Source: a virus
DNA length: 24,087 bases
IMG/VR virus record: IMGVR_UViG_3300033153_006977
Span: 1-24,087 of that record
Direction: 5' to 3' (one strand)
Within the stretch, counting starts at the first letter, position 1; the number at the start of each line of letters is the position of its first letter. The notes under the pieces were generated by a model. That model ran no database searches. It was given only the letters and a program-made list of their open reading frames with translations, and had not been told where the DNA came from. Below, one piece after another: positions 1,267 through 19,749 of the stretch. The position numbers were made by a program, and so were the translations under genes.

Positions 1267-3066
1267 TTATTGGTTCATTGTATTCGTATCTACACCCATT
1301 GCTGAGGCTGTTGCACCTGGGCCTGTTTCCTGGTTAGGTTGCTGCCCACCCGGAGGACCCTGGTTTAATACTCTTGGATCTAATGTAGGTGCTGTACCTA
1401 AAGCCATAGCTGCTTGCCTAAAGATGGCCCCTATTTCAGCTGAGTGCATTGTCTTAGTTTGCTTAGCTAATAAACTAGCAATCATAAAGTAATAGCCTGG
1501 CTGTGCTTGGCCTAACATTTGTCCTGCAGGACTTTGTAAGGTTTGTTGTATCATTAACTTATCAGCATCAGAGGCATCTTCATAAGCTACACTCTCAATT
1601 TTAATATCCATACGACTAAATATTAAACTATAATCAGGGTCATTAATTATTTCTCTTACAGGGCCTTTGTTGCCCATAATTACTGTAGAAGCAGGCATTT
1701 CTGTTCCATTTGGTTGAGGCAACATAACTGGTGTATTTAGCCTAGTCCAATTAACTTTTTGAGTCATATCATCTGTACTATCAACTTCAAATTGGGCTGT
1801 CATATACTGCCTCATTAAATGGATGAGGTCTAATGCTACTGAGCGGTATAAAACATCAAGTTTAGTTGTTAAATATCTTAATGCCATCATAGAAGAATTC
1901 CTCTGTAAGGCTACTTTTTTACCACTATCACTAGCAAAGGTTTGACCTAGGAAACTATCATTAATATGGAGTACTTGTTTAATTCTGTCCAAGCCTCTAT
2001 CAATAATCATATATTGATTAGCAATATCTCTTGTTACATCAATCTCCTTAATACCTATCAGTTTATTAACACCTATAACTGCATTAACCCTTGCCCAAGA
2101 AGCATTAAATTTATCTACATCATCAACAGCACCATTTTCAACTAATACCTTAGTTCCATTAGCTAGTTGTTGAATTTGCAGTATAGCTTGGTTAATAGCT
2201 TTTTGACTTTCAACAACATCCCTAAAAATACCATGAAAGTCAGCTTTCTTACCACTATGCAATTTTACAATTCTGTAAGGAAACCTTAAGGAATCAAAAT
2301 CTAACTTCTGCCTTTTTAATTCTACATCACCTGACCACCATATTTCCCAACTAACATCTTTATTATCCACCACACCAGTATGCACAATAAGATACTCTTC
2401 AAACATATTCCACCTATCAGTAAAACCCTCCCCATAAGTGTAGTCTATTTCTGCTGTATCTATATCTGCTGTATTAACTCTACTTTGTAGTTTTTTCCAA
2501 GTCCTAGGAAATAATTTTTGTGCTTCTTCTTGACTGACCCACCTAAATCTATGTACAAATCTAGCGTCTGAATAGTCAGGTTTATATGATTTAGGATCTA
2601 GAATAAATTCATAATAAGGCACAGACTCAAATTCAACTTCATTTTTTTGTCTTCCAAATTGATCTTGACCTGTAGGTTTTATTTTATAATGCACACCCAT
2701 TAAACCAGGGAGGAAGGCTTGTTGTTGTAAATCACCCTTAGTAACATCCCATAAGTTCATTCTTAAGGTATATTCTAAAGCTAAATTAATAGCATTAGCT
2801 GTTTGTACATCACCTTCTTCTAGAGCTCTTGCTTGCATAGTATTGACTACTGTACTAAAATAACCTTGTAAAGCTCTAGAAAACATTTGAATAATATTAA
2901 AATATTCAGCTGGTTGTCCCCGGTCTAAAAGGATTGAGAGTTGGGTTCTATTATACATAGCTCCCTCACTCATCTTAATTACTTCATCTGCTTCAGCATA
3001 ACTATCCTCATAGGCAGCATAGCCCATTTTAAAGCTTTCCCTAAGTGTATCTAAGTCTGTTTTCAT
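1267..3066 (-). CDS. Portal protein (head-tail connector)
   Basis: 599 residues, the usual size for a podovirus portal. Portals form the dodecameric ring at the packaging vertex through which terminase threads DNA. The sequence has the helical N-terminus with many aromatic residues, a central segment of the type seen in P22-like portals (SVPYYEFILDPKSYKPDYSD, near residue 150), a long helical region around residues 285-420, and a C-terminal tail rich in Pro, Gly and Gln. The start overlaps the stop of the 735-residue gene upstream as TAATG, so translation is probably coupled. Oddly, the gene is about 15 kb from scaffold and capsid, which normally sit beside it. Assignment rests on overall pattern and context rather than on a diagnostic motif. 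Confidence 0.8.
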   Translation of the reverse strand: MKTDLDTLRESFKMGYAAYEDSYAEADEVIKMSEGAMYNRTQLSILLDRGQPAEYFNIIQMFSRALQGYFSTVVNTMQARALEEGDVQTANAINLALEYTLRMNLWDVTKGDLQQQAFLPGLMGVHYKIKPTGQDQFGRQKNEVEFESVPYYEFILDPKSYKPDYSDARFVHRFRWVSQEEAQKLFPRTWKKLQSRVNTADIDTAEIDYTYGEGFTDRWNMFEEYLIVHTGVVDNKDVSWEIWWSGDVELKRQKLDFDSLRFPYRIVKLHSGKKADFHGIFRDVVESQKAINQAILQIQQLANGTKVLVENGAVDDVDKFNASWARVNAVIGVNKLIGIKEIDVTRDIANQYMIIDRGLDRIKQVLHINDSFLGQTFASDSGKKVALQRNSSMMALRYLTTKLDVLYRSVALDLIHLMRQYMTAQFEVDSTDDMTQKVNWTRLNTPVMLPQPNGTEMPASTVIMGNKGPVREIINDPDYSLIFSRMDIKIESVAYEDASDADKLMIQQTLQSPAGQMLGQAQPGYYFMIASLLAKQTKTMHSAEIGAIFRQAAMALGTAPTLDPRVLNQGPPGGQQPNQETGPGATASAMGVDTNTMNQ

Positions 3067-5273
3067 TATTTAAATCCTTCTGCCTTAGCTTGTTCATTCA
3101 TAGTCCTGCCTGCTTGCTCTGCCCTAGTTTTTAATGCTTGTAAAGCTTTTTTTCTAGTATTTTGTTCTGTGTTTTCTTGAGGTTTAGTTTCCTCAAGTAA
3201 AGGAGCCACTGCCTTAGTTACTTCATTAAAGCTTTCACTAGCTACAAAGCCACTAATTTTCTTGTGAAGTCTAGCCGCATCCCTTGCTACTTTATATCCT
3301 CCATTACTGACGGAAGAACTAACATGACCTTCTAGTTCTCTTTGACTAACCTTTAGGCCTTGTTGAATAGTAGATAAGGTTGTTAACTTTGACACACCTT
3401 CTGCTCCAAAGGAGTAAAGTAATGTTCTAGCATATTCTTGGTCTGAGGCTGCTGTACCTGACATTGTTTTAAGTAGTATAGCTGTTGCTCTACCTTTGGC
3501 AGATTTAGCCATAACTGTTAAAAGTTCCGAAGCTCTTTTTCTAGGATCTTCATCTGTTTTATATTCCCCTATTTTCTGTTTAACAAACTCCCAAGCATCT
3601 GCATACTCAGTAGTAACATCTGCTTTACTATATAATGTAGCAATATCCATCATAGCAGGAGCTGATTGGTCAATACCTCTAATTGCTTTACCTGTTTCTT
3701 TCACAACATCTGGGTTATAAACTCCAGCATCTTTAGCATCCTTAGTTAGCCTATTTAGATCTTGTGTAGATGTTCCAGTTAACTTATCAGTTTTGTCCAT
3801 AAAGCTAATATTGGTATCATTTATATAGTCCTCATAAGATGATACTCTTTGTATAGCATTATCTGCTTTTTGGTCTTTAACAAACTCTTTGTTTTTTTCT
3901 TTCATAACATCTTTGTACTGAGCAAATTGTTCTACTGTAGCAATACCATGCTCTTGTGCCCATTCAGAATCTGCAGTAAGTAAAACCCCAAACTCTTTTT
4001 GTTCTGAGGTAGCTGCTTTTTTCTCAATTGCTGAGTTTATTACAGCTAAGGTTTTATTTGCTTGAGTCTCAAATTCTGTTCTATCCATAGGTGAGTCAGT
4101 CCACATACTAGGACTTTCAGGTGCTTGGGTACTAACACTTGCTTGTGTTGGGTGTATAACTGGAGTTTGTTGTGGCTTAGCTACTACAGTAGTTTGACCT
4201 TCTGGTAATTCAGCATCACTATTAATAGCTTCAGAGGCCCAACTTGGCATTTTACCTCCACCTGTTGTTGTCCCACCTATATAAGACCAGGAAGCAGGTT
4301 TACCTCTTCTATCAATGTGTAGAGAGTTATTGCCCACACCAAAACCAGTAAAGCCTTGTTGCTTAAAGTCTTTAATTATCTCTGCTTTTTCTGCTACTGA
4401 TTTACCCTTCCAGTGAACATCCATAGCATGACCTTCCATATGTTTACTCTGTTTTGCCCCCCCTACTGATTTATTATGTTCCTCACTCCTAAATCCAGAA
4501 GTAACTCTAAGACCATATTTTTTTAGGACAGGACTTGCAGCATCAGAAGATTCTGGGTCTAAGTCTTGGTATATTTTAGGTTGGGTTTGCTTTAAGTGGT
4601 TAGCTTTTCTTTTGCTTGTACCTAAACTAACTCCTGGATCTAGAGAGGAAGTAACCGACCCATCACCTCTAAGTAACATTACTGTTGGGTCAAACATTTG
4701 TCCAGACTCTCTAATTTTATATTTCTGCCCACCCTCTGTTGTAATGACTTCAATTTCTCCTGTTTCAATCATATCCTCCCATTTGTCATTAAGGCCTTGC
4801 CATTGTTCTGTTTGAGTTGAATTTAATTCACTTTTAGTTGTAGGCTTATATTTATTAGGCCCCATTTGAAAGTAACCTTCAGCATCTGCCTTAGGTGAAC
4901 CTCCAGCACTTTCTGCCATTTTAGGTAAGTGTTGTTTATTTCCATCCAGGGAATATAAGTCAGAATTTTCATCAAAAGTTGTTGAACTCATTTTAGCAGC
5001 CTGAGCATTCCTATACATATTTTGAGACTGAATAGTTTGAATATTCAATTCCTTAATATACTTTGCTTGCTTAGCTAGAGTATTTGCTCTTTCTACTCGC
5101 CCACCATAAATATCATCCCCAGCTTTTAGTACATCAGTTTCTAAACTGGCCTGCTCTGATTTAAGCTCTCTAAGGGGTCTTTCTTGTTCAAAAACCTCTT
5201 TTTCTCTTGCTTTACCTGCAAAGGTACCACCTGTCTTAACTGCATTTTGTATTCCTGAACTATAAGATCCCAT
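3066..5273 (-). CDS. Virion protein with embedded M15 (VanY/DacA-like) peptidase domain
   Basis: 735 residues. An Ala/Glu/Lys-rich, probably coiled-coil N-terminus (residues 20-95) is followed by a zinc peptidase domain at about residues 235-335. The M15 signature is visible as SKHMEGHAMDV (ligands H278 and D285) and SLHID (H319). This family cleaves peptide cross-links of peptidoglycan. The rest is Gln/Thr/Ser-rich and then helical to the C-terminus, as in internal virion proteins. Placed between the gp14-like protein and the portal, it is best read as an ejection protein that opens a hole in the cell wall during DNA entry, comparable in role to the murein hydrolase of T7 gp16 but with a different enzyme fold. 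AAGGAG site 7 nt before the ATG. Catalytic residues look intact. Confidence 0.75.
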   Translation of the reverse strand: MGSYSSGIQNAVKTGGTFAGKAREKEVFEQERPLRELKSEQASLETDVLKAGDDIYGGRVERANTLAKQAKYIKELNIQTIQSQNMYRNAQAAKMSSTTFDENSDLYSLDGNKQHLPKMAESAGGSPKADAEGYFQMGPNKYKPTTKSELNSTQTEQWQGLNDKWEDMIETGEIEVITTEGGQKYKIRESGQMFDPTVMLLRGDGSVTSSLDPGVSLGTSKRKANHLKQTQPKIYQDLDPESSDAASPVLKKYGLRVTSGFRSEEHNKSVGGAKQSKHMEGHAMDVHWKGKSVAEKAEIIKDFKQQGFTGFGVGNNSLHIDRRGKPASWSYIGGTTTGGGKMPSWASEAINSDAELPEGQTTVVAKPQQTPVIHPTQASVSTQAPESPSMWTDSPMDRTEFETQANKTLAVINSAIEKKAATSEQKEFGVLLTADSEWAQEHGIATVEQFAQYKDVMKEKNKEFVKDQKADNAIQRVSSYEDYINDTNISFMDKTDKLTGTSTQDLNRLTKDAKDAGVYNPDVVKETGKAIRGIDQSAPAMMDIATLYSKADVTTEYADAWEFVKQKIGEYKTDEDPRKRASELLTVMAKSAKGRATAILLKTMSGTAASDQEYARTLLYSFGAEGVSKLTTLSTIQQGLKVSQRELEGHVSSSVSNGGYKVARDAARLHKKISGFVASESFNEVTKAVAPLLEETKPQENTEQNTRKKALQALKTRAEQAGRTMNEQAKAEGFK

Positions 5274-8668: not shown

Positions 8669-9367
8669 CTATAGGACTTGTAAATCATAAGCTACAACAC
8701 TTAAAGTATAAACCCCAAATTTATCTTTAAGAATTAAAACTCTGTCAGTTCCAGCCACAGTATAAGTGGGAGAAACTCCTCTATCAAATAACATAGTACT
8801 AGGATGTATAATAGTACAATTACCCCCATTTACTATATCTATGATAAATCCTGCTACTTTCTCTAAAGGAAAACCTGTAAAAGCTAAAGTTAAACTATCA
8901 GTCCCAGATCCAGGGGCTACTATATGTTGCATATCACCAAGAGCATAATCAAAAGTGTGGGTAGTATTAGCTAATGGGGAGGCACTATCTAGTTGAGTGT
9001 ACTCTGCAGCTAAAATTGTTTGCTTTAAAGCTATTTCCCCAATAGGAACTTCACTATCTTGTACTTCACCTGTAGCATCAAAAGTAACAATATTATCTTC
9101 TGTAGGCACTGGGTCAGGTATAGTTAAAGCAATGCCTAGTTTATCTTTATAGGTATCTGTAAAATCATTTGCTGATAAACCTTTACCTGTTACTACATCA
9201 ACCTTAGCAGCCATTTCTTCATCTGTTGGCCCTATCTGAAAGATTGTACTATCAGTAGCTTTTGAATAAGCTTTTTTACCTGTTACATCTATGCCAATGC
9301 CCCCCTCTATTAAATCACTAGGAGAGGGAGCTCCATAACCTTTTTTATATATCTCTGAAAATAACAT
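8669..9367 (-). CDS. Fibre-like tail protein with C-terminal domain duplicated elsewhere
   Basis: 232 residues. The N-terminus has segments typical of phage tail appendages (GIGIDVTGKKAYSKATDS; KVDVVTGKGLSANDFTDTYK). The C-terminal 100 residues form a beta-rich module with FDYALGDM, VAGFIIDIVNGGNCTIIHPS and TYTVAGTDRVLILKD. This module is clearly related to the C-terminus of the 15812-16462 protein, even at DNA level. It sits between the adaptor and the nozzle, so it may be a fibre attached at the tail hub. AGGAG site, ATG start. Function as receptor-binding or connector is inferred. Confidence 0.65.
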   Translation of the reverse strand: MLFSEIYKKGYGAPSPSDLIEGGIGIDVTGKKAYSKATDSTIFQIGPTDEEMAAKVDVVTGKGLSANDFTDTYKDKLGIALTIPDPVPTEDNIVTFDATGEVQDSEVPIGEIALKQTILAAEYTQLDSASPLANTTHTFDYALGDMQHIVAPGSGTDSLTLAFTGFPLEKVAGFIIDIVNGGNCTIIHPSTMLFDRGVSPTYTVAGTDRVLILKDKFGVYTLSVVAYDLQVL

Positions 9368-9375
9368 TTAGTCTC

Positions 9376-10188
9376 CTAATTTTTAAATGGGGTTCTATAC
9401 CCAGAATTACGGGTAGTATTCTTAACCCCACCAGTAACTTTTTTCTTTCTAATAGATGCAACTTCACTCTCATCTAAGCCATATATCTTCATAAAATTGG
9501 ACCCTTTAACCATATCCTCAGTTCTACCTGAAATAAATAATAAATTTCCCGCTGTTCCATAAATAAGGGCATTAATATTTATTTCATCAATATAGATCCT
9601 AGTAGAGTCTAAGTCATCTGCAGTTACTTTAGGTGGTAAATGAGTACCATATATAGTTACTACTTCAATCATAGCACTAGGTAAACTGTTAGTAGCAGGA
9701 GCTAAATATTTAGCACCTGTATTATTGTTTACAAATAAATATCTATTAATAGGGTCATGACTTTCAACAAGTTCACCTATATAAGATATAATATCTGCCT
9801 CAGCTGTAACTGTTACATTTATTAGCCTAGGATACACTTTTACCTTTCTATCAGATAAATTATTGTATACTATGCAAGTAAGAGCTGACTCTGTAGTATG
9901 ACCTTCCCAAGTGGGTATATCTATATCCATTTCTTCTTGGGATTTAAAATCAGTCTTCCTACCTCTGAACACACCCCTAGTAGCCTCATGGATAGCATCT
10001 GGTAAAGTATAATTAACCCTATTATCAACTAATTGTAAGTAATCAAAAGTTTCAAATATATCAGTTTTATTAGCTAGGTCCCTGTAAGTATTATTTAACT
10101 CAGTTATAACTTGAGCTAAGGTAAACTTTTCAAAAGCAGAATTTTCTACTTTATGGTTAATGTCTGCTATAATGTCATTAAATGTCAT
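9376..10188 (-). CDS. Tail adaptor (gatekeeper-type head-tail connector) candidate
   Basis: 270 residues. The N-terminal helices (FNDIIADINHKVENSAFEKF, LAQVITELNNTYRDLANKTD) followed by a beta middle (YTLPDAIHEATRGVF) match the pattern of adaptor proteins that dock under the portal, in the role of T7 gp11 or P22 gp4. The C-terminus contains IYGTAGNLLFISGRTEDM and a basic tail. AAGGAG site before ATG. It is followed by fibre-like and nozzle genes, consistent with a tail module. A specific family was not confirmed. Confidence 0.6.
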   Translation of the reverse strand: MTFNDIIADINHKVENSAFEKFTLAQVITELNNTYRDLANKTDIFETFDYLQLVDNRVNYTLPDAIHEATRGVFRGRKTDFKSQEEMDIDIPTWEGHTTESALTCIVYNNLSDRKVKVYPRLINVTVTAEADIISYIGELVESHDPINRYLFVNNNTGAKYLAPATNSLPSAMIEVVTIYGTHLPPKVTADDLDSTRIYIDEININALIYGTAGNLLFISGRTEDMVKGSNFMKIYGLDESEVASIRKKKVTGGVKNTTRNSGYRTPFKN

Positions 10189-10197
10189 TTGTACTCC

Positions 10198-10641
10198 TTA
10201 TAAATTGTATTTTCTTATATCATAAACTTCTCTAGCATCTCTACCTTCAAGTTTACTAATTTGCCAATGTGGTAAGTCTTTACCCCATAAATCATATCCA
10301 TGGTCAATAGGTAATTTATACTCAGCAATTACTTCCTTCATCGCTTTAATTATAGCCTTATAATATTTAATATCCCAACTATAAGTGCCATTTACCCAAG
10401 CTACTAGATCTACAGCTAATCCATATTGATGAAAACTATCCAATGTCCAAGTAACTTTACGCCCTTCTCTAGTCCTACCTTGAGCATACATCCAAGCTTG
10501 TTCTGGGTCAGTCCTACGGCCACCTTTATCACAAATAGCAAAATCTTGTTTTGTTCTTTGAATTGCCATGTATACAGCAAAAGCAAGAATAGGGTGTACG
10601 CCAACTAATTCTGTTAAAGTCTTATTTCCCAGAGAGAACAT
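10198..10641 (-). CDS. Endolysin, M15C-type L-alanyl-D-glutamate peptidase
   Basis: 147 residues, close to the T5 endolysin (137 residues). Zinc-ligand motif FHQYGLAVDLVAW gives H71 and D78, and DLPHW gives catalytic D122 and ligand H125, with the same three-residue Asp-to-His spacing as in T5 Lys. The enzyme cuts the L-Ala/D-Glu bond in the peptidoglycan stem peptide to release progeny. No signal peptide is seen, so a holin is needed. The start overlaps the end of the preceding gene by 20 bp and has a strong AGGAGG site 7 nt upstream. All key residues are present. Confidence 0.88.
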   Translation of the reverse strand: MFSLGNKTLTELVGVHPILAFAVYMAIQRTKQDFAICDKGGRRTDPEQAWMYAQGRTREGRKVTWTLDSFHQYGLAVDLVAWVNGTYSWDIKYYKAIIKAMKEVIAEYKLPIDHGYDLWGKDLPHWQISKLEGRDAREVYDIRKYNL

Positions 10642-11053
10642 CAGCTTCCTCCTGCAGAAATCTAGCTAGTTTTACTGGGTCTAATTGACAGTCCGGCAAG
10701 CCTAATACACATGAAGCTATCTCTGAGCAATAAAATCTGTCTTTTCCATGCAAAGGCAAATGGAAGAACTCCCAAAAAAGAATACCTAATTGGTCATAAG
10801 GTTTACCTAATGCTTCTGCGACTATAACAGTATCAATATTTCTGTGGGTTTCAATTATATCCCATTTACCATTATCAAAATTAATTTCTTTGATACGAAC
10901 CTCATTATCCCAAGAGGAAGCAGAGAAACCCTTATTATTAGACATAACTATTTCCACATGAGAATACTTACCCCAAGTCCAAAGTGCTATTAGTCCTGAT
11001 ATAGGTGTAAACCAACCATTCCGATACCATTTTTTAAATGCTACTTTTGTCAT
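10622..11053 (-). CDS. Permuted papain-like (NlpC/P60, YiiX-type) cysteine hydrolase
   Basis: 143 residues. GKYSHVEIV (H32, E34) near the N-terminus and DRFYCSEIASCVLG (C109) near the C-terminus give the His-before-Cys order of circularly permuted NlpC/P60 enzymes such as YiiX. Family members are thiol hydrolases acting on peptidoglycan peptides or lipid amides; the substrate here is unknown. It is coupled to the gene upstream by an ATGA overlap and to the endolysin downstream by a 20-bp overlap. It is therefore translated with the lysis genes and may be a second lysis enzyme. Confidence 0.7.
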   Translation of the reverse strand: MTKVAFKKWYRNGWFTPISGLIALWTWGKYSHVEIVMSNNKGFSASSWDNEVRIKEINFDNGKWDIIETHRNIDTVIVAEALGKPYDQLGILFWEFFHLPLHGKDRFYCSEIASCVLGLPDCQLDPVKLARFLQEEADVLSGK

Positions 11054-11367
11054 TTCCTATCCCTTCTACAAGCTTCAATTTGCTTTGTATTTTCATCACA
11101 ATTATTTTCCACCATATTAACTCTGCCATTAATTTTCTCCACAGACAGCATTATACTTATTTGTGCTTGTGTATTCCTCTTTAGTTCTTTTTGTGTTTCC
11201 AAACTTACAAGTTCTATACTTTCAAGTTTAGTAACAATTCTAGGTACTTGAAAAGCATAACTACTAACTAAAGACCCAACTCCCGTTGCTATAGTAACTA
11301 AAAACCCCATTAGTATAGCATTAGATCCCCATTTTTTTACTCTAGGTGACATAGTTTCCCTTTCCAT
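11050..11367 (-). CDS. Small membrane protein, holin- or spanin-like candidate
   Basis: 105 residues (100 if the internal ATG at 11352, with AAGGG 6 nt upstream, is used; the first ATG has GGGAG about 9 nt upstream). A basic N-terminus (RVKKWG) is followed by one predicted membrane helix (AILMGFLVTIATGVGSLVSS), then a charged, helical region with coiled-coil character to the end. One membrane span plus a coiled coil fits either a single-span holin or an Rz-like spanin. Its place before two cell-wall enzymes, coupled by ATGA, supports a lysis role. Confidence 0.6.
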   Translation of the reverse strand: MERETMSPRVKKWGSNAILMGFLVTIATGVGSLVSSYAFQVPRIVTKLESIELVSLETQKELKRNTQAQISIMLSVEKINGRVNMVENNCDENTKQIEACRRDRK

Positions 11368-11368
11368 T

Positions 11369-13048
11369 TTAAAACGCTCCCATATTTAAAGTTACTAAAT
11401 TATCTCTTGAAAGACCCTTAACCTCAAATATAGGTTTGGGTACTCTAAGATTTAAATGTCCTTGCTTATTATCATTAAGTGACCCTAAGGAAAAAATATA
11501 AGGTGTAGGAATGTCTAGGTCTATACTAGCATTCCAAATTGCAGTTGCTGTAGTATTTATAGTTGGAGAAGTAACACTTACTTCTAGCAAACCTCTTCTA
11601 ATTCTAAAGGCTTCTACACCTATAGTTGGTAAACTTATACCTATGCCAACTTCCCCCCCTCTACTTCTAAGACCTTCTATGTTTAGACCAGGTTGATTTA
11701 CATCTATGTTTGCTGCCCCTGACCAAATTGCAGCTCCTAAGGTTTCTACTACTGGGTTAGGTATTTCCAGATTAAAGTGAGCTTGTTGGTCATCATTAAG
11801 AGAAGGTAAGGCAAAGATATAAGGTTGTAACACATCTACATCTATTTTAGCATTCCAAAACATTGTAGCAATAGTATTTACTATTGGTATAGGCACCTCT
11901 AACGAAGTACATATACTTCTATCCATACTAGCAGCTACTGAAGCCATAGCACTTGGTATATCTAGGCTTATACTTGCATTTTTAAGTACAAAAGCACCTA
12001 TTGTTAGAGTTGGTTTAAATATATCTATTTCTGCTTGTGCATATATACTAATGTCACCCAAGGCTTCTATAGTTGGTGTAAGTATGTTAATAGCTATACT
12101 AGCTTCATGTATTACTAAGGCCTCTATACTTACCGTAGGTGTATATACTCCAATATTTATGTTTGCATATATACCTATATTACCAGCAACTTCTATAGTT
12201 GGTGTATCTATGTCAATATCAATAACACCTTGCCGAATTACAGAGGCAGCAGCAGTTATAGTTGGCTGACCTACATCTATATCACTAGTACCTTCTCTAA
12301 CTCTAAATGCATCTGTAACTATAGTTGGCTGGTCTATATCTATACCACTAGAGGAATTTAAGTCTCTAAATGCATCTATAGTTACAGTTGGTGGAGCTAC
12401 ATCTATATCAATAGTACCCCATTGTGCACCACTTATAGACCCGGTTATACTTAAAGTTGGTGCTTCCACAGCTATATCAATAACACCCTGCCAAATTAAG
12501 GTAGTATTTGTAACTATAGTTGGCTGGTCTACATCTATATCAATAGAAGATTTTACCTCTTTAAATGCATCTGTAACTATAGTTGGCTGGTCTATATCTA
12601 TATTAATAGAAGAATTCAAGTCCTTAAATGCATCTGTAGTTATAGTTGGCTGGTCCACAGCTATATCAATAATACCTTCTCTAACTCTAAATGCATCTGT
12701 AGTTATAGTTGGCTGGTCTATATTTATATCAAGGGAAGAATTCAAGTCTCTAAATGCATCTGTAACTATAGTTGGCTGGTCCACATCTATATCAAGGGAA
12801 GAATTCAAGTCTCTAAATGCATCTGTAACTATAGTTGGCTGGTCTATAGCTATATCAATGGAAGAATTCAAGTCCTTAAATGCATCTATAGTTACAGTTG
12901 GCTGGTCTACAGCTATATCAATAATACCTTCTCTAACTCTAAATGCATCTGTAGTTATAGTTGGCTGGTCCACATCTATATCAAGGGAAGAATTCAAGTC
13001 TCTAAATGCATCCGTGCCTACTGTTGGCTGATCTATATCTATATCTAT
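11369..13048 (-). repeat. 63-bp tandem coding repeats of the fibre gene
   Basis: About 26.5 units of 63 bp (21 codons). Units between about 12482 and 13048 are nearly identical at DNA level; segments such as TGCATCTGTAACTATAGTTG recur. Units 2-5 resemble units 6-9 in order (RVREGI, then KDLNSS, and so on), indicating a 252-bp higher-order duplication. Unit similarity fades toward the 3' end of the gene, so the 5' copies look like the recent expansion. Confidence 0.9.
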
Positions 13049-13726
13049 AAGCCCCCACTCAATAACCCCGGGTGTAGTTGTATCTCCTGCAATAACAAAC
13101 TGTGTAGCAACATTACCATCAGATGCAGATGACGCTATTATAGAAGTTCCCGTACTTGTTGAAGCTGTTGATATTTCTTTTGTTGAGTAACAACCTGCTG
13201 CTCCATTACCATTAGTTCCAATTTCAAGTTCATCTTGTTTTGTCCAGCCGGTACCACTTTCAGTAAAGGGTAAACCGTCATCACCATCAAAGGCAAAAGC
13301 AGAAAAAGCTAATGAATATGTATTTGTATCTGTTGTTATTGCTGCAATGGTTGTAGAAGAACTACTTTCTGTCTGTGCAGAGCCTAGAACCCTAACTGGG
13401 TTGGTAGCATTTTGCCCTGTAATACGGAGATACCACCCAAAATGGTCATCACTATCTGTAGAATTTATAGTTACAGAGTCTTCATTTGAGCCATCTGCTA
13501 TTTTAGAATATAGTCCGATATAACTATCTGAAGTTGCATCACCGTAGCTATATTCTTGAGTCCATCCAGTGGTGTTGTCAATAAACCCCTCACCAGCAGC
13601 CCCATTATCATTACCTACAAGTATTAATAATAAGTCACCATTTTCCACTCCAGAAGGAATAGTAAAAGTTATGGCATCCGATGTGACTACAGCTGTGGTA
13701 CTGTTCGCTATTACTGGTAATGCCAT
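11369..13726 (-). CDS. Giant repeat fibre / adhesin-like protein with 26 tandem 21-residue repeats
   Basis: 785 residues. Residues 1-220 form a beta-sandwich-like head (IPSGVENGDLLLILVGND ... GWTQEY), of a type shared with two neighbouring genes. From residue 227 to the end I count 26 full repeats plus a 9-residue remnant, with consensus [I/L]-DIDVDQPTIVTDAFRDLNSS. Repeats 10 and 21 carry two extra residues. Repeats 1-9 and 11-12 are close to consensus; later ones keep only the alternating hydrophobic/Asp strand and the Pro-Thr turn. The regular strand-turn pattern predicts an elongated beta-solenoid or stacked beta-hairpin stalk. AAAGGAT site before ATG. Location between appendage genes and lysis genes suggests a tail fibre. 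Receptor or ligand unknown; acidic side chains could bind cations. Confidence 0.7.
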   Translation of the reverse strand: MALPVIANSTTAVVTSDAITFTIPSGVENGDLLLILVGNDNGAAGEGFIDNTTGWTQEYSYGDATSDSYIGLYSKIADGSNEDSVTINSTDSDDHFGWYLRITGQNATNPVRVLGSAQTESSSSTTIAAITTDTNTYSLAFSAFAFDGDDGLPFTESGTGWTKQDELEIGTNGNGAAGCYSTKEISTASTSTGTSIIASSASDGNVATQFVIAGDTTTPGVIEWGLIDIDIDQPTVGTDAFRDLNSSLDIDVDQPTITTDAFRVREGIIDIAVDQPTVTIDAFKDLNSSIDIAIDQPTIVTDAFRDLNSSLDIDVDQPTIVTDAFRDLNSSLDINIDQPTITTDAFRVREGIIDIAVDQPTITTDAFKDLNSSINIDIDQPTIVTDAFKEVKSSIDIDVDQPTIVTNTTLIWQGVIDIAVEAPTLSITGSISGAQWGTIDIDVAPPTVTIDAFRDLNSSSGIDIDQPTIVTDAFRVREGTSDIDVGQPTITAAASVIRQGVIDIDIDTPTIEVAGNIGIYANINIGVYTPTVSIEALVIHEASIAINILTPTIEALGDISIYAQAEIDIFKPTLTIGAFVLKNASISLDIPSAMASVAASMDRSICTSLEVPIPIVNTIATMFWNAKIDVDVLQPYIFALPSLNDDQQAHFNLEIPNPVVETLGAAIWSGAANIDVNQPGLNIEGLRSRGGEVGIGISLPTIGVEAFRIRRGLLEVSVTSPTINTTATAIWNASIDLDIPTPYIFSLGSLNDNKQGHLNLRVPKPIFEVKGLSRDNLVTLNMGAF

Positions 13727-13740
13727 TTACTATCCTTTAT

Positions 13741-14346
13741 TTAGTTTATTGTCCAAGTAACAGCACTCAACTCAGTAGCTGTATTACAATCATTTATCTC
13801 TTTTTCTTTATTCCACTGATATACTATAGCACTATCTCTATGCATATTAATTGCCTTGTAGCACCTTCTTACATCAAGATGACCTAAAAACTGCATGGTA
13901 TTTGAGGTATCTCTTAAATAAATTGAGGGTATAGAGTTTTCAACCATAAGGTCATATCTTTCCCTTATGTCATACAAGTCATTTCTACCTCCAAACATTT
14001 CTATAGTGGAGGTATCTACAAGAGGCACACTTACTAAAAACCTTTCGTTGTCTTTTATATCTCTATCAAGTTCCAGCAATTTTTTTGCTTTATAGGTAGT
14101 AAGAGCAGTATCAATTTCAAGTTGAGTCATAGGTACAATTTCCCAGGTTTGAGTATAATCAACAGGGGCAAGTTCTACAGCCTTTTCAGTATAAATATCT
14201 AGGGAAGGTACTGCTGTAGGTATAATAAGTTTCCACTCAGAACCAAGCATAGCGCTTCCGATTGGAGGGTAGCTTATATGGGGACTTGCTTGTTTTATCT
14301 TAGTATATAGTTTAATTTCTTTTGTTGTTATGTGTTGATATTCCAC
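13741..14346 (-). CDS. Tail accessory protein, DUF4376-like
   Basis: 201 residues. Start is GTG: in-frame stop codons lie directly upstream and AAGGA is 6 nt before it. The N-terminal half is beta-rich; the middle (QTWEIVPMTQLEIDTALTTY) and a basic helix lead to a C-terminal domain containing YLRDTSNTMQFLGHLDVRR and YQWNKEKEINDCNTATELS. The latter resembles the DUF4376 domain found in fibre-associated and fibre-assembly proteins. It sits immediately before the repeat fibre, so a chaperone or attachment role for that fibre is plausible. Family match is from memory of the pattern only. Confidence 0.5.
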   Translation of the reverse strand: MEYQHITTKEIKLYTKIKQASPHISYPPIGSAMLGSEWKLIIPTAVPSLDIYTEKAVELAPVDYTQTWEIVPMTQLEIDTALTTYKAKKLLELDRDIKDNERFLVSVPLVDTSTIEMFGGRNDLYDIRERYDLMVENSIPSIYLRDTSNTMQFLGHLDVRRCYKAINMHRDSAIVYQWNKEKEINDCNTATELSAVTWTIN

Positions 14347-14355
14347 TTATTATCC

Positions 14356-15099
14356 TTATCTTGGTCTCAATACCATTGTTATTGAAGCACTACTATTGTT
14401 CAAATCAGGACCACCTACCCCATGTTCAAACGTATTTGGGTTATAATAACCAGCAACATCTTCTTTTACTGCACTTCCAACTGTGATAGCTTGTTTCTGC
14501 CCTGAAGGGGCACAATAGAAATGAGCACTTGCCATATCATCAAGATTGCTACAGGTAAAAAGTCTTTCATTGGCATCAGCTATAGCATAGGATGAAACTG
14601 CAGTTGCTATTAAAAGTGCTTCTTCTGTCACTGCTGTTATTGAGGGTGGATTAGGCTCAGCATAATCTCCCCTACTAGCAGTTGTAGGTGTAGCATCCAT
14701 GGGTGTTACAGAGTTAACATTTCTATATACCCTAATCATCACACCTGCAGTAGTAGCACCATCATCTGGAAAGACTACTGTTGTATCAAGAGGAGCTGCC
14801 ATAAATTTATAGGCTGCATTTATTCCAGAGGAATAAAAATCTGATTGACTCCTATTTGCTATTCTTGTATAGCCCCCGGTTGGGTCATTAACTGTGCAAC
14901 CCCCTATGCCCCTTTTTGCTAACCCCCTTAATACTATAACAATATCTCCTACGCCTGGTGAGGAGGATATTCCCCCAGTGAGAGAAGTTAAAGCTACAGA
15001 TAAAAGGTCATCTTCATAACCAGCTATTAGGGTCCCTCCAACATAAGTTATGCCTATATCTTTAACTGAACTCAGTAATAATTTTTTGACTAATTCCAT
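14356..15099 (-). CDS. Appendage protein with beta-sandwich domain
   Basis: 247 residues from the ATG at 15099, chosen because AAGGGG lies 7 nt upstream; a GTG at 15126 would extend it by 9 residues into the previous gene. The opening (MELVKKLLLSSVKD) resembles that of the upstream 233-residue protein (TLFKKMLSAPVSD). The body, with PGVGDIVIVLRGLA, GGYTRI and ALLIATAVSSYA, follows the same order of motifs as the head domain of the repeat fibre. These proteins probably arose by duplication and decorate the tail or head. Mostly beta, no transmembrane segment, no enzyme motif. Confidence 0.55.
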   Translation of the reverse strand: MELVKKLLLSSVKDIGITYVGGTLIAGYEDDLLSVALTSLTGGISSSPGVGDIVIVLRGLAKRGIGGCTVNDPTGGYTRIANRSQSDFYSSGINAAYKFMAAPLDTTVVFPDDGATTAGVMIRVYRNVNSVTPMDATPTTASRGDYAEPNPPSITAVTEEALLIATAVSSYAIADANERLFTCSNLDDMASAHFYCAPSGQKQAITVGSAVKEDVAGYYNPNTFEHGVGGPDLNNSSASITMVLRPR

Positions 15100-15110
15100 T
15101 CTTTTACCCC

Positions 15111-15812
15111 TTATGTCTTTTTCCACATACCTAATGCTATCGCCATTTGCGTTGTAGCAGTTGTGTTTTTATCAAATGTAATTGTTTTACTTACACTCCC
15201 TGCTATAAAAGCTGTACCAAATATGAATTGTCTATTATCTATGGTTACATTATACTCTGTGTTTACATCTCCCAGTGTAGCTCCACTACTATTTTCCCAC
15301 AAGGCAGACGCTATTAATATTGAGTCAGTAGTTGAAGTAACAGCCTCACCCCATACCTCTGTGTTGCTATCTCTTTTAATACTTCTTCCATCATCCCAGG
15401 CCCAGCCTCCATATAATGCCACAACAGCTATTGCCCAAGGGTCACAGGTTTCACCATCTACGCCACTCCCAGTTTCTAAATATATGTCGGCAATACTTCC
15501 AGTAGGAACAATAGCTTCAAACACTTTAACAGCTATGGAGATATCACCATAGTGACTCTGTGTTATATCCGAAACTGGTATATTTACACCATCAACTTTA
15601 CATATTGCCATAGACCTACCATTAGTAGATATATCATACCTAGCTGCATGTCCAATAATTATAAGTCTTCTGTCCACTGCTGGGTCTCCTATGGGTACAT
15701 CTGTCCAAGTACGATTACCTACACTAGAGGAACCATCTATTCCGTTGACATACTTAGTTCCATTAGTTCTATCTGAGACTGGGGCACTTAGCATCTTTTT
15801 AAATAAAGTCAT
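15111..15812 (-). CDS. Appendage protein with beta-sandwich domain, paralogue of its neighbour
   Basis: 233 residues. Beta-rich, with the pattern DPAVDRRLIIIGHAARYD, then IVPTGSIADIYLETGSG and an ILIASALWENSSG segment, of a kind common in uncharacterised phage fibre genes. Its first 13 residues match the start of the next gene's product in pattern. The ATG overlaps the preceding stop as TAATG and no good ribosome binding site is visible, so translation is probably coupled to the upstream gene. A virion appendage role is inferred from position within the fibre block. Confidence 0.55.
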   Translation of the reverse strand: MTLFKKMLSAPVSDRTNGTKYVNGIDGSSSVGNRTWTDVPIGDPAVDRRLIIIGHAARYDISTNGRSMAICKVDGVNIPVSDITQSHYGDISIAVKVFEAIVPTGSIADIYLETGSGVDGETCDPWAIAVVALYGGWAWDDGRSIKRDSNTEVWGEAVTSTTDSILIASALWENSSGATLGDVNTEYNVTIDNRQFIFGTAFIAGSVSKTITFDKNTTATTQMAIALGMWKKT

Positions 15813-16462
15813 TATGCTACTACTTTAATATCTTGTGCGATTATTGTAAGGGTTAAAATTGCATCTTTATCACTTGTTACTAAAATCCTATCTGTCCCAT
15901 CTGTTGTATATGTTGGTGCTGTACCAGCTGCAAATAACATTGTACCTGGGTGGGTAATAGTATAATTACCCCAGTCTACAGCATCAATTATATAACCAGC
16001 AACATCACCACTTGGAAAGTTGCTAAAGGTCAAAGTCGTGAGGTTCCCAGTAGCAGTATATTGTATCATATCTTCAGTAGCATAATCAAAAGTAACTGTG
16101 CCACTACCAGAATCATCTGCAACTTGTCTAACTGCTGACTTATTCATAGTTTTACCATTGAAGTCTAAGTCTCCCCCTAACTGTGGAGAGGTATCATCAA
16201 CTACGTCTTTATCACCTGAGTTTGTCCCAGAAGTATTGCCTATAACAGTAGACTCAGCATCAGTAACGTATCTTTTGTCAGTACTGTCTGCAATATCAGC
16301 TGTTGTAGCTGCTTCTCCAGCAGTAACAAGACCTTTTGCATCATATGTAACCTTAGTTTTAGTGCCAGGTGTTATATCTGCATTTTCTTCTACTCTTGCA
16401 TTTACTGCCTCAACTATTTCTGTAGGTGTTATTTTTCCTAGCGTACACTCTAAATCAGCCAT
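15812..16462 (-). CDS. Fibre-like protein with duplicated C-terminal domain
   Basis: 216 residues. The longest frame starts at 16516, but that would overlap the previous gene by 44 bp; the ATG at 16462 has AAGGGGG about 6 nt upstream and leaves a 10-bp gap, so it is preferred. The middle has the phage-fibre motif DDTSPQLGGDLDFNGKTM (residues 89-106). The C-terminal 100 residues (FDYATEDM, VAGYIIDAVDWGNYTITHPG, GTDRILVTSDKD) match the C-terminus of the 8669-9367 protein. Likely a short tail fibre or a segment of one. Confidence 0.65.
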   Translation of the reverse strand: MADLECTLGKITPTEIVEAVNARVEENADITPGTKTKVTYDAKGLVTAGEAATTADIADSTDKRYVTDAESTVIGNTSGTNSGDKDVVDDTSPQLGGDLDFNGKTMNKSAVRQVADDSGSGTVTFDYATEDMIQYTATGNLTTLTFSNFPSGDVAGYIIDAVDWGNYTITHPGTMLFAAGTAPTYTTDGTDRILVTSDKDAILTLTIIAQDIKVVA

Positions 16463-16472
16463 CTTATCCCCC

Positions 16473-16964
16473 TTAGTTGCATATCCAGGCCATACTACAA
16501 TCGTAGGAGTCTGCACAAATTAATATTTTATGTATTGGCGAAATTAAATCAGTTTTTAATTTCCAAGACACTACTGGTGGTGTAAAGTCTGTACCTGTAT
16601 TATCTAAAGTTAATGCTGTTGTTTCATCACCACGATATACATCTGCAGTATCGTTGCCTTTATAATGAACAGCAGTAATTTTAAATAACGCATACTCTGC
16701 TAGTGCTATTGTTCTGACATCTGCCAAGGTAGTAGCTAAGTTAATTACCTTGTCTGTGTATTTATGGTACCCAAGGTCACCATAAACATCTTCAACATCA
16801 TATACTTCAATTAGTACCCATTCAGCTGCGGCAGGAAGAATGAAAGTTGTATCACCCTCCCCATCACTGCCAAGAGTAAGGCTTTTATTGGCTTCATCTG
16901 TTGTATAGGTACCCGTGAGTTCTGCTATATGAGTATCACGTGTATCTGCAACATATTCAGCCAT
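16473..16964 (-). CDS. Unrecognised protein of the fibre block
   Basis: 163 residues, acidic and beta-rich. The N-terminal part (TYTTDEANKSLTLGSDGEGD, TTFILPAAAEWVLIEVYDV) looks like a fibre-type beta domain. The C-terminus carries three Cys residues (ILICADSYDCSMAWIC), unusual in this block. AAGGAT site before ATG. I do not recognise a family. Position between fibre genes suggests a virion component. Confidence 0.5.
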   Translation of the reverse strand: MAEYVADTRDTHIAELTGTYTTDEANKSLTLGSDGEGDTTFILPAAAEWVLIEVYDVEDVYGDLGYHKYTDKVINLATTLADVRTIALAEYALFKITAVHYKGNDTADVYRGDETTALTLDNTGTDFTPPVVSWKLKTDLISPIHKILICADSYDCSMAWICN

Positions 16965-16973
16965 TATTTATCC

Positions 16974-17378
16974 TTATGGTACGTCTAGAGTAACGATTAA
17001 GTCACCAGCAGCAATCTTGAAAGTATCATTTGTATCAATAGTCTTAGAAGATGTTAATGCTCCATGATAAAGCAAGTTACCTGAAGTAGAAGCATCCCAA
17101 AGACCAATGTGAGTAATTGTACCCCAAGTAGCATCAGAAGCTTGTGCAAAAGCAATCTCAGCTGTATTTTCTGTTTGACCATCTGTAATACCAGTCATAG
17201 ATGTAAATGCACCTGTATCAATTCTAACATAGTTAGTTCCTACACATTCAGCTCCTGAACCATCATCTAAGGGTGAAGTTGTATGTAGTGCTACATAAGT
17301 AGTTGAAACTGTTGGGAAAGCAGCATTGTTAAGTACTGTCTCTAATAATTTTTGTTCTAAAAAGTCCGAAGTAGGCAT
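16974..17378 (-). CDS. Virion protein of a widespread phage fibre/appendage family
   Basis: 134 residues. The pattern LLETVLNNAAFPTVSTTYVA, then LHTTSP, NYVRID, TWGTITHIGLWDASTSGNLL and KTIDTNDTFKIAAGDLIVTL is a common compact beta domain encoded near tail genes in many tailed phages. It usually has no known function. Full length for this type. AAAGGAA site 6-7 nt before ATG. Family recognised by pattern; role as structural protein inferred. Confidence 0.65.
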   Translation of the reverse strand: MPTSDFLEQKLLETVLNNAAFPTVSTTYVALHTTSPLDDGSGAECVGTNYVRIDTGAFTSMTGITDGQTENTAEIAFAQASDATWGTITHIGLWDASTSGNLLYHGALTSSKTIDTNDTFKIAAGDLIVTLDVP

Positions 17379-17388
17379 TTTTGTTCCT

Positions 17389-17940
17389 TTATTGTAAGTT
17401 GTACATCATACCAAATACATATTCTGCACCTGTATAATGTATCATTAGTAAGTCATGGCCTGTATTAGGCGTCAGCGTGTTAGTTTTAATATCACCGCCC
17501 ATCCAAAGACCAGTGGGAAGTGTTAATACACCACCTACTGCTCCTTGGTAGATATGGAGATAAATAGTACAAGGACCATCAGGAGCCTGTATAGACATTG
17601 CACAAGCAGAGTTTATAATAACTTTTTGATACTGAGCATTTAAAGGGTCTAATATAAAATTAGTTGTTTTAGTCCCATTATCATAAAGACCAGCAGCATT
17701 AAAAACAACTACTTTTGCATTGTCTATTTTTTCATTTTGTGCATCTAATGTACCTCCTAGTTCAGGTGTTAAATCTTCTACTACATTACTTATTGCAGTG
17801 CTTACAGTCTCTTTCTCACTGTCTGTAAAACCATTAGTATCAGGATTATTTTCATACTTAGACTTAATTTGCTCATCTGTATAATTAGCTGCCAAAGGTA
17901 AATCATTAAAATCCTCTGCATTGTCTTTAAGTTGAGCCAT
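17389..17940 (-). CDS. Fibre-like protein
   Basis: 183 residues. It carries two motifs typical of phage fibre N-termini and linkers: NYTDEQIKSKYENNPDTNGF (residues 19-38), and DLTPELGGTLDAQNEKIDNA near residue 56, the latter similar to the 15812-16462 product. The rest is beta-rich (CTIYLHIYQGAVGG, MMYNLQ end). The ATG overlaps the stop of the 43-residue gene as TAATG. Probably a short fibre or tip protein. Confidence 0.6.
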   Translation of the reverse strand: MAQLKDNAEDFNDLPLAANYTDEQIKSKYENNPDTNGFTDSEKETVSTAISNVVEDLTPELGGTLDAQNEKIDNAKVVVFNAAGLYDNGTKTTNFILDPLNAQYQKVIINSACAMSIQAPDGPCTIYLHIYQGAVGGVLTLPTGLWMGGDIKTNTLTPNTGHDLLMIHYTGAEYVFGMMYNLQ

Positions 17941-18579: not shown

Positions 18580-19749
18580 TTACGCTGCTGCTGTAGTACT
18601 GTGATATGTATCAACGGCAATTACACCATAATCCATATTACCAATTCTAGCTTCATCATAGTCTACCGTTTCTGGTAGAAGCTGTGTTTTCTGCACATTA
18701 AACCATACTTCAAGTAGTGACTCAGAAGTGATTTTGTGATCTGGTGAAAACTCAAGGTTATAATTAGGTTCCATACCCATACCATATTGTAAGGCACCTG
18801 CACCAAGAAGAACTGAACGGCAAGCAATAATTTTTTCACCTACAGCACCAAATCCAACTTCACCAGAATAAAGTCCATCTTCATCAAGCTTTCTAAATCC
18901 AGCAATTTCTGGCTTAGTTTTACCTGCTCTACGATCTGTTGAAACACCAAAGAAAATAGGTGCAACTGTTACCATGAGATTACCAATACGAATTGGTTGA
19001 CCTTTAAACAAGAAGTTATTTAGACCTCTAATGTCACCCTGAGCTACTAGATCTTGCCATCTGTCATCTTTACGAAGATCAAACCATGCTTTATTATCAA
19101 GCATTAAGTTCCAGATATCTTCACCATCTTTTGTTTGAAAAGGTTTAAGTGGCATTCTTTTACTACCAACTGCAAAACCATCTCCCTCAAGCATTTTTTC
19201 ACTTAACTCAAGAATATAGTCATAAGACATAATGTCTGTTGTAAGTAAAGCACTTATTGTTGCTCTATCGTTTGGACGGAAAACATGAGAATTAGTAAGA
19301 CTATCAAGTCTACCTTGAACTGAGTCAAAATGAGCTTGATCTTTATGTCGTGTCCATAGGTCTGCTAGTTTACGTCTAGAATCACCATGTTCAGTAATTG
19401 ATAAGTCACCAATCTCTTTACCATTGAACTTATCTCCATTATTAACTGGAATACGTCCTCTACGGATTTTAAGTGAACCAGAGAATTTTCTTTTACCTTC
19501 ACCTTTACCCCAAGCTTGCTCTCTGTCAAGCGCCATTTCACCTGTCAAATAACCATCATAGTCAAAGATAATGTTATTACCCTCAGTTACGCTAGTCATA
19601 TTCTTTTGGTATACTACAGACCCACCAGTGCTACCTGTGTAAGCTGCCCAAAAAGATTTAGCGGCATTCTGAACTAGGCCTTCTTTTACCCACCCTTTAC
19701 GGATGAGGTCAGAATCATAATCCAAGAATGCTGTTTCATTTGCTGACAT
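18580..19749 (-). CDS. Major capsid protein, DUF4043 / N4 gp56-type
   Basis: 389 residues, the expected size for an HK97-fold shell protein. The pattern fits the N4 gp56-like (PF13252) capsid family: an early DYDGYLTGEMALDREQAWGK segment, then LSITEHGDSRRKLADLWTRH, a central helix with DIMSYDYILELSEKMLEG, and a C-terminal LGAGALQYGMGMEPNYNLE block. It follows the scaffold by 11 bp and has AAAGGAG 7 nt before ATG. It forms the icosahedral shell together with the upstream scaffold and the downstream head protein. Confidence 0.85.
   Translation of the reverse strand: MSANETAFLDYDSDLIRKGWVKEGLVQNAAKSFWAAYTGSTGGSVVYQKNMTSVTEGNNIIFDYDGYLTGEMALDREQAWGKGEGKRKFSGSLKIRRGRIPVNNGDKFNGKEIGDLSITEHGDSRRKLADLWTRHKDQAHFDSVQGRLDSLTNSHVFRPNDRATISALLTTDIMSYDYILELSEKMLEGDGFAVGSKRMPLKPFQTKDGEDIWNLMLDNKAWFDLRKDDRWQDLVAQGDIRGLNNFLFKGQPIRIGNLMVTVAPIFFGVSTDRRAGKTKPEIAGFRKLDEDGLYSGEVGFGAVGEKIIACRSVLLGAGALQYGMGMEPNYNLEFSPDHKITSESLLEVWFNVQKTQLLPETVDYDEARIGNMDYGVIAVDTYHSTTAAA

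Follow-up and report, generated by a model that had tools for sequence, protein, structure and literature searches.

Trimeric beta shafts are the commonest architecture of phage fibres, and the helices of known tailspikes are, to our knowledge, not built of near-identical tandem repeats. In phage EfV12-phi1, in-frame tandem duplications occur in a putative tail-fibre gene and their number changes in coevolution, with the mechanism behind the altered infectivity reported as unknown (PMC6365445). The BACON domains of crAssphage are tail-associated beta-domain repeats that have grown by sequential duplication (PMC6949934), and the tail-fibre gene is reported as a major difference among the Alteromonas R9Y phages (PMC9430817). 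Here we analyse a repeat protein encoded in a podovirus-like fragment, a virus record of 24,087 bp that is referred to as the window (the whole stretch of DNA that was analysed), and compare it with these systems.

A tandem array of 26 units

The repeat protein has 785 residues and consists of a 226-residue N-terminal domain followed by 26 units starting at residue 227 (Table 1). An HMM of a single unit, made from the same units, found 26 domains in it, and identity at a lag of 21 residues reached 0.348, whereas none of 1,000 shufflings of these residues exceeded 0.115. A reading made from the sequence only had proposed 26 full 21-residue copies filling residues 227-785. The number of units was right, but their lengths and end were not: the proline register (P at 234, then 21-residue spacing with 23-residue steps from 423 to 446, 635 to 658 and 742 to 765) gives 21 residues in 23 of the 26 units and 23 residues in the other three (units 10, 20 and 25), and unit 26 stops near residue 778. 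The longer units exceed the others by exactly two residues, so that strand alternation is kept. No separate domain is found at the C-terminal end, the units extending almost to the terminus.

Unit positions 3 (I/L/V) and 5 (V/I) are hydrophobic in 26/26 units and position 10 (I/V/L) in 24/26. The 21-residue units thereby combine the inward-hydrophobic alternation and the regular repeat of about 18-25 residues by which beta-solenoids are recognised. As had been noted from the sequence, the array is acidic, with a net charge of -27 over units 1-9.

Table 1. Coordinates of the repeat protein and its parts, of neighbouring genes in the window and of loci used for comparison
Feature	Coordinates	Strand	Remarks
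Repeat-protein ORF	13726-11369	minus	single open frame, 785 aa, without frame break
N-terminal domain, aa 1-226	13049..13726	minus	tblastn, phmmer, predicted beta strands
Units 1-9, aa 227-415	12482..13048	minus	21 aa / 63 bp each; most homogenised part
Two four-unit copies, 252 bp each	12758-13009 and 12506-12757 (span 12506..13009)	minus	93% identical
Unit 10, aa 416-438	12413..12481	minus	23 aa (two-residue extension); proline register 423 to 446
Units 11-19, aa 439-627	11846..12412	minus	divergence increasing progressively
Unit 20, aa 628-650	11777..11845	minus	23 aa; proline register 635 to 658
Units 21-24, aa 651-734	11525..11776	minus	21 aa each; unit 24 opens second five-unit copy
Unit 25, aa 735-757	11456..11524	minus	23 aa; proline register 742 to 765
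Unit 26 (aa 758-778), C-terminal tail (aa 779-785) and stop	11369..11455	minus	
Adhesin/lysis cassette containing the repeat gene	10198..17940	minus	Pfam and PHROG matches
M15-type endolysin	10198-10641		phrog_465 endolysin match in cassette
CHAP-like protein	10622-11053		
gp80-like fibre, PF23140 'Podophage GP4 fiber I'	16974-17378		E 1.9e-40
SU10-type adaptor	9376-10188		
Major capsid protein (MCP)	18580-19749		
LTEYP-type 22-24-aa repeat proteins	L020:3-3719; L102:9488-10261; L105:1-3597; L108:1-2685		
43-aa repeat proteins of window relatives	L030 (1361-4139); L031 (2-1597)		near capsid gene
32-aa repeat protein of a window relative	L058:742-3288		near capsid gene
R9Y loci	L004:3293-4924 (R9Y3); L005:3371-4864 (R9Y2); L109:7224-9353 (R9Y1)		

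Predicted fold of the units

Without homologues, AF2 predicted the whole protein to be all-beta at a mean pLDDT of 49. When an in-family alignment was supplied for units 1-9 (189 aa), the pLDDT was 56 and about two strands were predicted per unit, recurring every 21 residues. Foldseek returned no match for this model at E<0.001, and for the full-length model it returned mixed non-significant folds, including weak FnIII/Ig matches. Re-examination of Foldseek's own candidates by VIA-align overlaid the units 1-9 model on right-handed beta-helices with Z of 12-13.7 and rmsd mostly 2.5-3.5 Å, middling Z values being common for repeats according to the notes of the aligner. AF2 is also biased to beta-solenoids for near-perfect repeats, even random perfect ones (PMC11795689). 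Because of this bias, the low pLDDT and the lack of a significant Foldseek match, the solenoid is treated here as a working model. Thus, the units likely form beta structure, and this part of the beta-solenoid stalk put forward by the sequence-only reading agrees with the all-beta prediction, while its solenoid part is a weakly supported model (pLDDT 56 and no Foldseek match at E<0.001).

Solenoid geometry corresponds to about 0.48 nm per coil. If each unit forms one coil, the rod of 26 units would measure about 12 nm and would lengthen or shorten by about 0.5 nm with each unit gained or lost. Reach should therefore not be greatly affected, and the variable reach proposed earlier is doubtful. 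In such a solenoid the three outward Asp residues of each coil (positions 2, 4 and 6) would line up in rows and, as a point against this fold, repel one another unless cations bind.

The rod might instead be an intertwined trimeric beta structure of a virion fibre. The prevalence of trimeric shafts among phage fibres argues for this arrangement, and the predictions made here are of a monomer and of low confidence. However, the monomer model is already solenoid-packed and superposes on beta-helices along its entire length, and we regard the trimeric rod as rather unlikely.

Genomic setting and the N-terminal domain

The large terminase of the window shares about 43% identity with its counterparts in podoviruses KF-1, VPMS1 and PH1. 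A portal, a major capsid protein, an SU10-type adaptor and ejection-type proteins can also be recognised. In the window, capsid and adaptor are separated by about 8 kb occupied by fibre-like genes and lysis genes, an interval that is much shorter in related podoviruses; in VPMS1 and PH1 the capsid gene is close to the following structural/collar genes. The cassette in this interval includes PHROG tail-fibre matches (phrog_7389 and phrog_24456) and further small fibre-like proteins; PF23140 (gp80) is matched by one neighbour and not by the repeat protein. A structural and adhesin cassette with fibre-like neighbours agrees with the phage fibre that had been read from the sequence.

Two further proteins of the window (8669-9367 and 15812-16516) apparently have a common C-terminal domain and both match L047 at about 4206-4730, a likeness that suggests a fibre-like domain duplicated on either side of the cassette. 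Beside the portal gene, a 735-aa protein (3066-5273) carries a Peptidase_M15 domain (PF08291, E 1.5e-16) and may, judging from this domain, be a virion protein digesting peptidoglycan.

Relatives were found for the N-terminal domain of the repeat protein. Residues 24-115 are 39% identical over 92 aa to a Ruegeria phage protein (tblastn, E 3e-6), and phmmer gave E 3e-22 against L002. AF2 placed beta strands at residues 10-118, making the first half beta-rich, and gave residues 119-228 a pLDDT <50. In Ruegeria phages the relative is a stand-alone hypothetical protein gene, sitting between the tail-gene neighbourhood and a chitinase-domain (GH19) gene. The neighbouring genes at 14356-15126 and 15111-15812 were considered as paralogues of the domain and rejected, BLASTP and hhalign giving no support.

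The repeat gene adjoins the lysis genes, lying directly upstream of them in transcription, and the Ruegeria relative likewise adjoins a chitinase gene. Both adjacencies would suit a protein off the tail, either a head decoration or a surface- or exopolysaccharide-binding protein released by lysis. This assignment is very unlikely in our view, given that the same cassette holds a GP4-type fibre gene together with the PHROG tail-fibre matches and that both the Ruegeria and the Gordonia relatives of the N-terminal domain have tail genes nearby.

Repeat proteins near the capsid gene of related phages

IMG/VR contig 3300010392_001069 (L020), whose TerL and MCP are 46% and 40% identical to those of the window, encodes in the cluster after its capsid gene a protein in which N-terminal domains precede an array of 22-aa units. 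At least 30 of these units are present, a lower bound because the contig edge cuts the 3' end of the gene. Two of the 30 counted units are 24 aa long, with the same two-residue extension as in the window. The two proteins thus share the podovirus group, a position near the MCP, N-terminal domains and extended units, but the L020 unit (consensus DPLILTEYACTV) is unlike the 21-aa unit of the window: hhalign gave a probability of 0.1% between LTEYP-type units and window units, and about half of the permuted controls scored as high. Unit homology had been considered by eye (PTIVTDAF vs PLILTEYA) and was dropped after this profile comparison. The LTEYP-type 22-aa repeat is also present in the IMG/VR contigs L102, L105 and L108, records with no match to the TerL of the window, and the L020 protein had no tblastn match in a phage collection of 50,697 records. 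The very long open frames of L020, L105 and L108 (895 to 1,239 aa) all run into the end of a contig or stretch, and L105 and L108 have a common conserved C-terminus, PVGRVINIE.ENR.LSI.KEVI.

Other relatives of the window carry different repeats near the capsid gene, namely 43-aa repeat proteins in L030 and L031 and, in L058, a fibre-like protein containing tandem 32-aa units (HAQIDTHIADSTLHFTVGSIDH). By eye, the 43-aa repeat (DDGETW...GNGVFVAVA) has the look of a beta-propeller blade. The fibre locus of these podoviruses is apparently exchangeable, the repeat proteins that it carries differing in build from one member to another.

Searches for the repeat family

Protein and pattern scans of IMG/VR revealed no homologue of the repeat part, nor did searches of about 85,000 genomes, of plasmids and of PDB sequences, and no family of Pfam, PHROGs or NCBIfam matched it. 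The locus scans used short exact or degenerate patterns, which a diverged homologue could escape; degenerate unit DNA patterns gave only single non-tandem matches in viral and genome contigs. The whole records of 48 relatives and analogues likewise gave no homologue of the repeat protein (a search without positive control), and the phage collection gave only weak matches, the best of them to Alteromonas phages. Within the sensitivity of these scans, the earlier statement that the repeat family is not a recognised one is upheld. By these comparisons the sequence of the unit has no precedent in the databases that were searched, repeat-built stalks being already known phage parts.

A listed match to TPR_30 (E 3.8e-5) scored 24.5 bits, below the Pfam cut-off of 29.7, with no stretch passing alone, and the TPR reading was rejected because a period of 21 residues and predicted beta structure are at odds with a 34-aa helical hairpin. 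Matches to SHNi-TPR and, for the Alteromonas analogues, to HCV_NS5a lay around or below the cut-off with no stretch passing alone and, like that to TPR_30, are probably composition-driven, as is a DUF945 match to the same analogues at a similar level. No trimerisation domain was recognised in the repeat protein, and no autoproteolytic C-terminal chaperone domain was matched in it by Pfam, PHROG or NCBIfam.

Duplication and homogenisation of the repeat DNA

TRF reported arrays of 63, 126 and 189 nt at 12254-13049. Pairwise DNA identity is 63-95% among units 1-8 and 57-71% for unit 9, and the first nine units had therefore been overstated as nearly identical in DNA. By contrast, the parallel drawn between units 2-5 and units 6-9 is borne out by the 93% identity of the two 252-nt blocks (12506-12757 and 12758-13009). 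The four-repeat higher-order period claimed on this basis holds for units 1-9 but is absent from units 10-26, which resemble one another most at offsets of 5 and 11 units. This divergent half contains a five-unit duplication, with units 19-21 resembling units 24-26 (unit-unit BLOSUM scores of 70 for 20/25, 49 for 19/24 and 28 for 21/26), and unit 12 remains close to units 2 and 6. The four-unit period thus looks like a local recent duplication rather than an architectural or structural period. Sandwiches of Ig-like or fibronectin-like type, arrayed with four units to a domain, would explain this period. A domain of this kind has roughly 84 aa, and the low-confidence full-length model had drawn the weak FnIII/Ig matches, but the reading is highly improbable since units 10-26 lack the period and the better units 1-9 model shows strands every 21 residues and matches beta-helices.

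The array is homogenised at its N-proximal side. Exact runs of 57-62 nt occur in the repeat DNA, separated by 63, 189 and 252 nt, and together with the gradient from young to old units they fit repeated N-proximal in-frame duplication or conversion. Recombination between repeat copies is plausible from these exact runs. A surplus of nonsynonymous differences among young units had been considered as a sign of diversifying selection; this was dropped, the data being few and the synonymous changes in variable codons not clearly below the 22-24% expectation.

A difference of a single unit can be seen between the sister Alteromonas siphophages R9Y2 and R9Y3, whose 24-aa-repeat protein gp16 has 11 and 12 units: one exact 72-bp gap, equal to one unit, separates the two repeat genes, with the 809 nt downstream of the gap identical and the N-terminal domains strongly diverged. 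The corresponding cluster of R9Y1 has a single 709-aa tail fibre, which at both of its ends matches R9Y3's short tail fibre. By analogy with R9Y2/R9Y3 and EfV12-phi1, repeat number can in principle change in the phage of the window. Between window and R9Y units, hhalign gave E 0.002-0.003 and beat 60/60 permuted controls at a probability of 10-13%, the hhalign probabilities spanning only 7-32%, a weak likeness by which homology is not established.

Discussion

With slightly more belief than doubt, we read the protein as a virion tail-fibre-like adhesin of a podovirus-type phage, composed of an N-terminal domain and a 26-unit rod that is most likely a beta-solenoid and whose unit number could change by recombination. 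We infer that it is present in the virion, folds as a solenoid, binds the host surface and may change its copy number in nature. The folded N-terminal domain would join a rod of 26 short beta units, stacked as a solenoid to which each 21-aa unit contributes about two strands (IDIDV, a DQP turn, TIVTDAFR and a loop). Near-identical N-proximal units would have spread as blocks of 63 to 252 bp were duplicated in frame or copied by gene conversion, leaving young homogenised units beside the N-terminal domain and older ones, now diverged, nearer the C-terminus, and unequal recombination could in principle change the unit number with the frame intact. A more specific version, in which an acidic solenoid shaft of an unrecognised family is stabilised by divalent cations along its Asp rows, tuned in length or presentation by 63-/252-bp recombination and one among unrelated shafts exchanged at this locus, seems to us quite unlikely. 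The favoured reading, of a tail-fibre-like adhesin, would add an unrecognised short-repeat family to the adhesive proteins of phages and, if copy number is variable, would offer a simple recombination route for adjusting host attachment.

Among structures of known phage adhesins, the Acinetobacter phage P1 tailspike (6e1r) overlays the units 1-9 model with Z 13.2 and rmsd 2.9 Å over 189 residues, and the Agrobacterium phage 7-7-1 tail fibre (9rkv) with Z 11.0. Their beta-helices resemble the predicted coil geometry but differ by a sequence identity of only about 9%, in a comparison made with a model of pLDDT 56. EfV12-phi1 differs from the phage of the window in being a myovirus and in having a duplicated segment of 1.8 kb (PMC6365445), and the crAssphage BACON repeats differ in being Ig-like domains instead of 21-aa units, with an eight-domain array that is stable in the prototype (PMC6949934). 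The gp16 protein of vB_AmaS-R9Y2 and R9Y3 belongs to a siphophage and has a 24-aa unit (consensus TGSVSVDGLSVTGAVSSDVDAPAL) and an N-terminal domain that is LamG-like by eye, but like the window protein it consists of an N-terminal domain followed by short tandem beta-type units with a conserved proline, and its gene is likewise placed in a tail-fibre/lysis cluster.
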